A stretch of 43,040 nucleotides of DNA from Opitutales bacterium (GTDB lineage: Bacteria > Verrucomicrobiota > Verrucomicrobiia > Opitutales > Coraliomargaritaceae): contig JABBCA010000030.1 in assembly GCA_018607135.1 (NCBI GenBank), positions 1-43,040 of the forward strand, written 5' to 3'. The notes beneath the pieces are model-generated. The model worked only from the letters and a program-made list of their open reading frames with translations. It was not told where the DNA came from and searched no databases. The translations under genes were made by a program, and so were the position numbers. This document shows positions 19,342 to 38,288 of this stretch, one piece after another (positions within the stretch are counted from its first letter, which is position 1; the number at the start of each line of letters is the position of its first letter).

Positions 19342-19373
19342 AAAGGCCCGAACGATTTGTTCGGGCCTTTTTT
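19342..19373 (+). terminator. intrinsic terminator of the TonB operon
   Basis: Perfect 12-bp stem AAAGGCCCGAAC / GTTCGGGCCTTT with a 5-nt loop, directly followed by a T tract (six T counting the end of the stem). It is 23 nt after the TPR stop codon. Confidence 0.95.
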
Positions 19374-19478
19374 AATCTTAGATTTAACAGTGGGCTGGCA
19401 CGGCTACTTTAAACAGCTAATTTCGTTAATTTACGTAAACTGGCGGTTTAACTCATCCTGTAAGGTTTGTGGGTTCTT

Positions 19479-19628
19479 ATACCGAATGAAAAAATGTTTG
19501 ATCGGGTAGCGCTGACTGGCCCAGTCAGCACGATTGAAAGCTGCAGGCTCGTCGGATGAATGCGGTGTGGGCCACACCGCGCTAGTGAATACGAACGTAT
19601 AAGGATCAAACTTTATTGAATTTGGTAT
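19479..19628. mobile_element. MITE-like element with nested palindromes (150 bp)
   Basis: The ends are 25-bp inverted repeats matching at 20 of 25 positions (19479-19503 and 19604-19628), beginning ATACC and ending GGTAT, with a perfect inner 8 bp GTTTGATC/GATCAAAC. Between them lie two perfect 19-nt palindromes of identical 9-1-9 design: GCTGACTGGCCCAGTCAGC (19511-19529) and GCGGTGTGGGCCACACCGC (19562-19580), plus a smaller ATACGAACGTAT (19589-19600). It could fold as a three- or four-way cruciform or RNA. There is no ORF and no transposase. A 2-nt TA flank on both inner sides is compatible with, but does not prove, a target duplication. The alternative is a structured RNA. Confidence 0.65.
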
Positions 19629-20089
19629 TATAGTCCGAGTTTTCTCTAATATCCGTTAGGCGAGTTTCGTAGGGATCTTTATCGGGTGGTGTAGGTGTGT
19701 TTCGAATGACGCTACTTTGAGGCGAACTTTAGTCGTTCGAGTTGGGCAATGCAGGGCCTTCGTAATGAGGCGGTCTCATATGAAACTTCAGCTATTTCTT
19801 GGACCTAACAAACCTATAGCGCATGCATTCGTCTGCCTTTTTGCGATTTGTAGCCGAATGGGTTATGATTTCTTCAATTTTGAGACCGTTTCCAAGCGTG
19901 GGCCCTACGAACTCGCTCTGCACGGTTGCGATGCAGAATGCAAAGCTCAGTTGCGTCGCGGTAGTGCTGTTGAAGATGAAGTATCATTGCAATCAGCCTA
20001 AAGGTAGTGCTATTCGAGACGTCTCTGGGCTACGAAACCTCAAAGCTCAAAGATCAAAAAAATTGAAAACGGCAAGAGTGCCTAAGCTA
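19629..20089. other. intergenic region with overlapping weak ORFs, no recognised gene
   Basis: 461 nt between the MITE-like element and the ABC exporter, which is convergent with the TonB operon. Two plus-strand frames (19717-20001, 19823-20131) have no recognisable product. A minus-strand frame, 19792-19983, reads more like protein (segments FVGPTLGNGLKIEEII and NRKKADECMRY) but has no ATG; see findings. No RNA gene or terminator is obvious. Confidence 0.45.

Positions 20090-38211: not shown

Positions 38212-38288
<77 letters not shown>

Follow-up and report, generated by a model that had tools for sequence, protein, structure and literature searches.

A probable new MITE family with a REP-like core in the genome of an Opitutales bacterium

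The DNA analysed here, referred to as the window, is the whole stretch of 43,040 nucleotides at positions 1 to 43,040 of contig JABBCA010000030.1 (GenBank assembly GCA_018607135.1) from an Opitutales bacterium. It contains a short element bounded by inverted repeats, whose parts are listed in Table 1. The nearest upstream ORF of at least 100 aa ends 162 bp from the element; in our reading it has TPR-like repeats, and it is followed by an intrinsic-terminator-like hairpin. No ORF of at least 80 aa in the ORF list of the window overlaps the element, and a tRNA at 38215-38288 is the sole match in the window at the Rfam gathering threshold.

A sequence-only reading had described the stretch 19479-19628 as a 150-bp element with 25-bp terminal inverted repeats around two perfect 9-1-9 palindromes. 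An inverted-repeat search recovered these symmetries. The arms 19479-19503 and 19604-19628 are 25 nt long and complementary at 20 of 25 positions (80%), with perfect inner parts GTTTGATC and GATCAAAC, and both palindromes are perfect. A further 24-nt inverted repeat lies between the hairpin units (19507-19530 and 19561-19584, 75% complementary). The extent of 150 bp was correct as regards the repeat itself and too long by one base on each side, as the outermost A (19479) and T (19628) are part of a TTA target-site duplication. The alignment of copies and their ends place the element proper at 148 bp, from TACC to GGTA.

Table 1. Positions in the window of the element, its parts and its upstream context.
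Feature	Position	Strand	Remark
Intrinsic-terminator-like hairpin after the TPR-like ORF, upstream of the element	19342..19370	+	context, outside the element
Left copy of the 3-bp target-site duplication, TTA	19477..19479	.	
MITE proper	19480..19627	.	copy alignment and ends; 148 bp, TACC...GGTA
Left terminal inverted repeat TACCGAATGAAAAAATGTTTGATC	19480..19503	+	
Left REP-like unit GGTAGCGC-TGACTG-GCC-CAGTCA-GCA	19505..19530	+	GTAG tag 19506-19509; palindrome 19511-19529
78-bp core TAGCGC...GCGCTA	19507..19584	.	six broken ends of other copies at its two borders
30-nt spacer between the hairpin units	19531..19560	.	
Right REP-like unit, family consensus GGTAGCGC-GGTGTG-GCC-CACACC-GCA	19561..19586	-	palindrome 19562-19580
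Right terminal inverted repeat, minus-strand reading TACCAAATTCAATAAAGTTTGATC	19604..19627	-	
Right copy of the 3-bp target-site duplication, TTA	19628..19630	.	

The element is repeated in its own genome (G000), a draft assembly of 3.53 Mb in 106 contigs. A BLAST search with the 150 bases found 27 places at 87-100% identity (E 1.4e-73 to 2.5e-7). Including the copy in the window, 10 of these 27 places cover positions 1-150 of the query and 14 cover at least 1-147. The matches on contigs C20 and C6 are one site on overlapping contig ends (55-base overlap), and two rows on C64 (50223-50610) are one interrupted copy, so the genome holds at most 25 copies. Further copies had been named as a check in the sequence-only reading, and the similarity among them stops at the ends of the element, as that check required. 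In an alignment of 20 copies, which leaves out the interrupted C64 copy and those on C10, C13, C16, C20 and C29, between 2.2 and 8.1% of positions differ from their own consensus. The copies are intergenic: by a simple call of ORFs of at least 100 aa, not one of the 14 full copies is contained in an ORF, and one (C64b) partly overlaps an ORF of 158 aa. The shortest member seen, 47 bp on C29 (45739-45785), looks like two right ends and nothing else, flanked on each side by TAA.

Two copies may bear traces of other elements. A stretch of 233 bp splits the C64 copy; its ends are inverted (CCCAGATTATGCA / CCCAAACTATGCA) and it comes with TTGAA as a 5-bp direct repeat, and it may represent another family of small elements inserted into the present one. 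At the copy C89:19281, 13 bases of another MITE left end stand inverted in the left flank, a few bases before the copy. Outside G000, none of the 56 relatives searched (genus, family and order) carries the 150-bp element. Plasmids and phages gave no match to it, and an exact 30-base piece of its core was absent from a collection of viral contigs.

The flanks of the copies indicate how they were inserted. The sequence-only reading had proposed looking for TA or other target duplications, and a duplication is present, as a 3-bp TNA rather than TA. The same TNA triplet stands on both sides of 11 of the 14 full copies (TTA, TAA and once TGA), truncated and contig-end copies being excluded from this count, and the flanks of the other three do not match. 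When the right triplets were shuffled among the copies, the mean number of matches was 4.5, and 0.02% of trials reached 11 or more (P 0.0002). At flank widths of 4 and 5, no pair matched in the full copies. Identical triplets at width 3 and none at 4 or 5 therefore define an element of 148 bp with a 3-bp duplication. There is also a mild preference beside the duplication, with C before it in 5 of the 11 copies and G after it in 7. The search for an orthologous empty site found none: the upstream TPR gene has relatives in two other genomes (G001 and G002), but blastn with the downstream DNA found no similarity there. The IS1031 group has target duplications of the TNA type.

A sister family was found in another family of the same order. 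In genome G103, the terminal repeat at up to 3 mismatches gave 60 ends, and the reversed control gave none. These ends paired into 26 copies, 20 of them 268-269 bp long. The flanking triplets were identical in 21 of the 26 paired copies, leaving five without a match, as compared with a mean of 10.0 and a maximum of 20 in 100,000 shuffles. A single pair, flanked by TTA on both sides, was found in G075, a genome of the same genus as G103, and its full length matches a G103 copy at 90% identity. The window element resembles the G103 and G075 elements only in the terminal ~29 bp (79-83%), the interiors sharing chance-level scraps. In the class as a whole, 9 of 384 genomes had a match to the end pattern at up to 3 mismatches; paired ends were seen among them in G000, G103 and G075 only, and the other six look like chance single ends. 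When the G103 consensus and single copies from G103 and G075 were folded in silico, the predictions had an outer stem of the terminal repeats around two large hairpins and one small one. The layout of terminal repeats around two hairpins is found again in this other family of the order, where the interior differs, an indication that hairpins beside the ends are tolerated or favoured.

Some G103 sites call for separate mention. Those with a single end look like truncated MITEs. On contig C80 of G103 (C80:4777, 1480-1525 of the locus read), a MITE end immediately follows the TAA stop codon of a gene scored as an integron integrase (TIGR02249), and this codon doubles as the TNA target. This integrase was considered as a partner of the family and rejected; because no second end was found around the gene, the site was taken as an insertion at the TAA stop.

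The sequence-only reading had also held that a trans-acting enzyme would be needed, and our searches leave that need standing. The end patterns matched 18 left and 19 right ends in the own genome, all at known MITE copies or fragments. The end patterns revealed no autonomous partner in the own draft genome, 273 genomes of the order or 384 of the class (overlapping sets). The end-matches read in other genomes were scanned over about 1.5 kb on each side, or over 5 kb at several sites of G103, and none of them showed a transposase gene with such ends. Contigs of genomes in general had 6 single matches and viral contigs 2, with no TNA-flanked partner end in the loci read. A search of the own genome with two transposase families (PF01609 and PF13359) gave one match for DDE_Tnp_1 and none for DDE_Tnp_4, and no IS5-type DDE transposase with these ends was found by it. 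The one DDE_Tnp_1 gene, on contig C69, was rejected as a partner: it belongs to the IS4 family (NF033592, 130 bits, cut-off 115), and these ends are missing around it. It is split over several ORFs (G000:C69:46756-47196), and CCATCCCATAGGGATG-like ends were seen beside it by eye. The helper may be unassembled, lost or diverged. The TNA duplication, taken alone, hints that it was IS5- or PIF-Harbinger-like.

Two accounts that dispense with transposition were weighed against these results. The element could be a structured RNA or an RNA regulatory element, such as a terminator or an mRNA stabiliser, kept by selection at about two dozen intergenic places. A structured RNA had been the other option of the sequence-only reading, and the fold it called for is strong. 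On each strand the predicted RNA fold is stronger than those of all 200 dinucleotide shuffles (z -4.07 on the plus and -5.36 on the minus strand). In favour of an RNA are also the intergenic position of the copies and the left tag, in which all 20 aligned copies keep TAG. The proposed covariation check did not bear the RNA out. In the 20-copy alignment, pairing holds in 94.9% of stem cells, and shuffles give 94.9% as well; a two-sided change occurred in one of 16 stem pairs, in one cell, compared with 0.5 expected from shuffles. Per cell, the two stems change at rates of 0.056 and 0.032 and the spacer at 0.048, and the left and right arms have rates of 0.022 and 0.056; the stem rates are like that of the spacer and not clearly below it, and thus no selection on the stems after insertion is seen. 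No Rfam match was accepted at the gathering threshold within the element, and of five nearby matches from a permissive RNA-family search none enters it past the first base. As the copies are also flanked by target duplications, a conserved RNA is not supported and must be considered very improbable. It is slightly less probable still that the repeat was spread by recombination or by duplication together with flanking DNA. The evidence for this comes from two fragments, C75:288 (the first copy on that contig) and C16:6464, which both break off at position 135 and continue into the same DNA (GAAA.AGGCATTACAGGTTCAATAGCTC). Their common junction and the shared DNA beyond it imply that some copies spread with neighbouring DNA, and these two truncated copies may belong to a larger repeated unit. 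However, the flanks of the 14 full copies differ, the similarity stops at the same base on each side, and the direct repeats described above rule out such spread for most full copies.

The origin of the core is a separate question. Both hairpin units follow one frame, GGTAGCGC-N6-GCC-N6-GCA. A comparison by eye shows that 3 of 6 stem pairs are different between them, yet each stem remains paired. In each, a GTAG tag is followed by a hairpin, and the two units stand in inverted order, which is the make-up of a GTAG REP dimer. In the window copy the right unit begins ACTAGCGC, its tag being mutated. Searched through the genome with up to 2 mismatches, the frame had 56 matches, as against 22 in the reversed control; 37 of them are in MITE copies and 19 elsewhere. 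None of these 19 has both an intact tag and a paired in-frame stem: one on C4 has 5 of 6 pairs in frame and a broken tag, two (C13:39628-39653 and C43:142935-142960) form GTAG hairpins in a different register and may be single REPs from other families, and the remainder have 0-4 pairs. The own genome has 10 Y1_Tnp (RAYT-type) ORFs (13 PF01797 rows; one ORF below the cut-off), and all six of those scanned match REP_Tyr_transpos, two of them above its cut-off. The exact unit pattern is absent from all 10 of these loci, one of which is cut by a contig end, and other GTAG hairpins occur at five of them by a home-made rule that has no chance control. Rows of Y1_Tnp matches numbered 50 in G103, 13 in G000 and 0 in G002.

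These findings bear on whether the core is a GTAG-tagged, head-to-head REP pair (REPIN-like) that was put in or moved independently by a RAYT, which would make the element a composite of two mobile systems. The shared frame with differing yet paired stems, the Y1_Tnp ORFs and the hairpins at half of their loci agree with it. In addition, GTAG lies outside in both units, as in the HH arrangement described in the accessible part of PMC3733652. A further argument comes from six broken ends at the core borders. Contigs C13, C102, C83 and C10 end at GG|TAG or CTA|CC, covering positions 1-28, 29-150, 1-106 and 107-150, and the second copy on C89 and the copy on C85 run into other DNA at, or no more than 2 bases from, these junctions. 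Such breaks could mark borders of the core or an effect of the hairpins on assembly. Against independent movement, about two thirds of the frame matches fall in MITE copies with no intact free unit among the rest, the RAYT-type loci lack the exact unit, and the G103 sister hairpins (consensus) have no GTAG-tagged unit. Moreover, other broken ends lie at positions 44, 81, 124 and 135, and four of the six border breaks are draft contig ends. We therefore regard a RAYT-moved core as unlikely. A two-tier element, in which a TNA-duplicating MITE carries a 78-bp REPIN-like core with exact borders of its own, at which arms were exchanged or the core was cut, so that a DDE transposase and a RAYT acted on one element, is more doubtful again. 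Should the REP-like core indeed have its own borders, nature would here have brought two transposition systems together in a single element. Our verdict is a new MITE family whose core is REP-like rather than a REPIN.

Accordingly, the stretch in the window is very probably one copy of a non-autonomous DNA transposon (MITE) family spread by DDE-type transposition. The copies share exact terminal inverted repeats and a target-site duplication, are multiple and have no coding capacity, and the MITE proposed from the sequence alone is supported by the further copies, the similarity that stops at the ends and the duplication. A transposase supplied in trans would have recognised the ends of ~24-29 bp (TACCRAAT..A..AA.GTTKGATC) and joined them to the target with a 3-bp stagger, duplicating a TNA triplet, mostly TTA or TAA. 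We infer that this mover was a DDE enzyme of the IS5/PIF-Harbinger kind that has since been lost or is missing from the assembly, and that the copies drift. In this reading the inner pair of hairpins belongs to the founder sequence; after insertion the hairpins decay at spacer-like rates, so no host function is indicated for them.

To the known systems the results add a MITE family whose ends are clear and whose TNA duplication is defined. In the literature searched for MITEs of Verrucomicrobia and Opitutales, no such family was found, as judged by titles or abstract openings. In the portions available of PMC3733652 and PMC10969869, bacterial MITEs such as Nezha, ERIC, NEMIS and Chunjie are similarly 70-300 bp long, with terminal inverted repeats of 15-30 bp, no coding capacity and strong secondary structure. 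The family described here differs from them in its own terminal sequence and its TNA duplication, with no helper found. A TNA or TWA target duplication was found here, and the IS5-family and PIF-Harbinger (PHIS) elements share the 3-bp TNA duplication, mostly TWA, whereas no transposase gene was found with the present ends. According to the consulted part of PMC4482050, the duplication is TWA in PIF/Harbinger, TNA in NuwaII and ANT in bacterial IS5, and the C|TNA|G of NuwaII is like the mild preference for C before and G after the duplication in our copies; a TNA rule was not found in the part of PMC7031236 at hand.

As regards the core, GTAG-tagged REP dimers and REPINs, as presented in the accessible text of PMC3733652 and PMC3116915, have the same two inverted GTAG hairpins with the tags outside, and they too occur in genomes with RAYT-type genes. 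In contrast to them, the present units were found neither as intact free units nor beside a RAYT-type gene, and the family has spread with terminal repeats and duplicated its target. QMITE2 of Coxiella burnetii is likewise a MITE with a GTAG REP, but it has direct repeats of 7-9 bp according to the available part of PMC10969869, compared with 3 bp of TNA here. Another parallel is GTAG-15 of Anabaena variabilis, whose dimers lie inside long palindromes in the part of PMC3733652 seen. There, too, a REP dimer stands within long inverted repeats, and the sequence of the arms is different. Palindromes without REPs were not found in A. variabilis, as stated in that part of the source, whereas the present family includes the ends-only member of 47 bp on C29.
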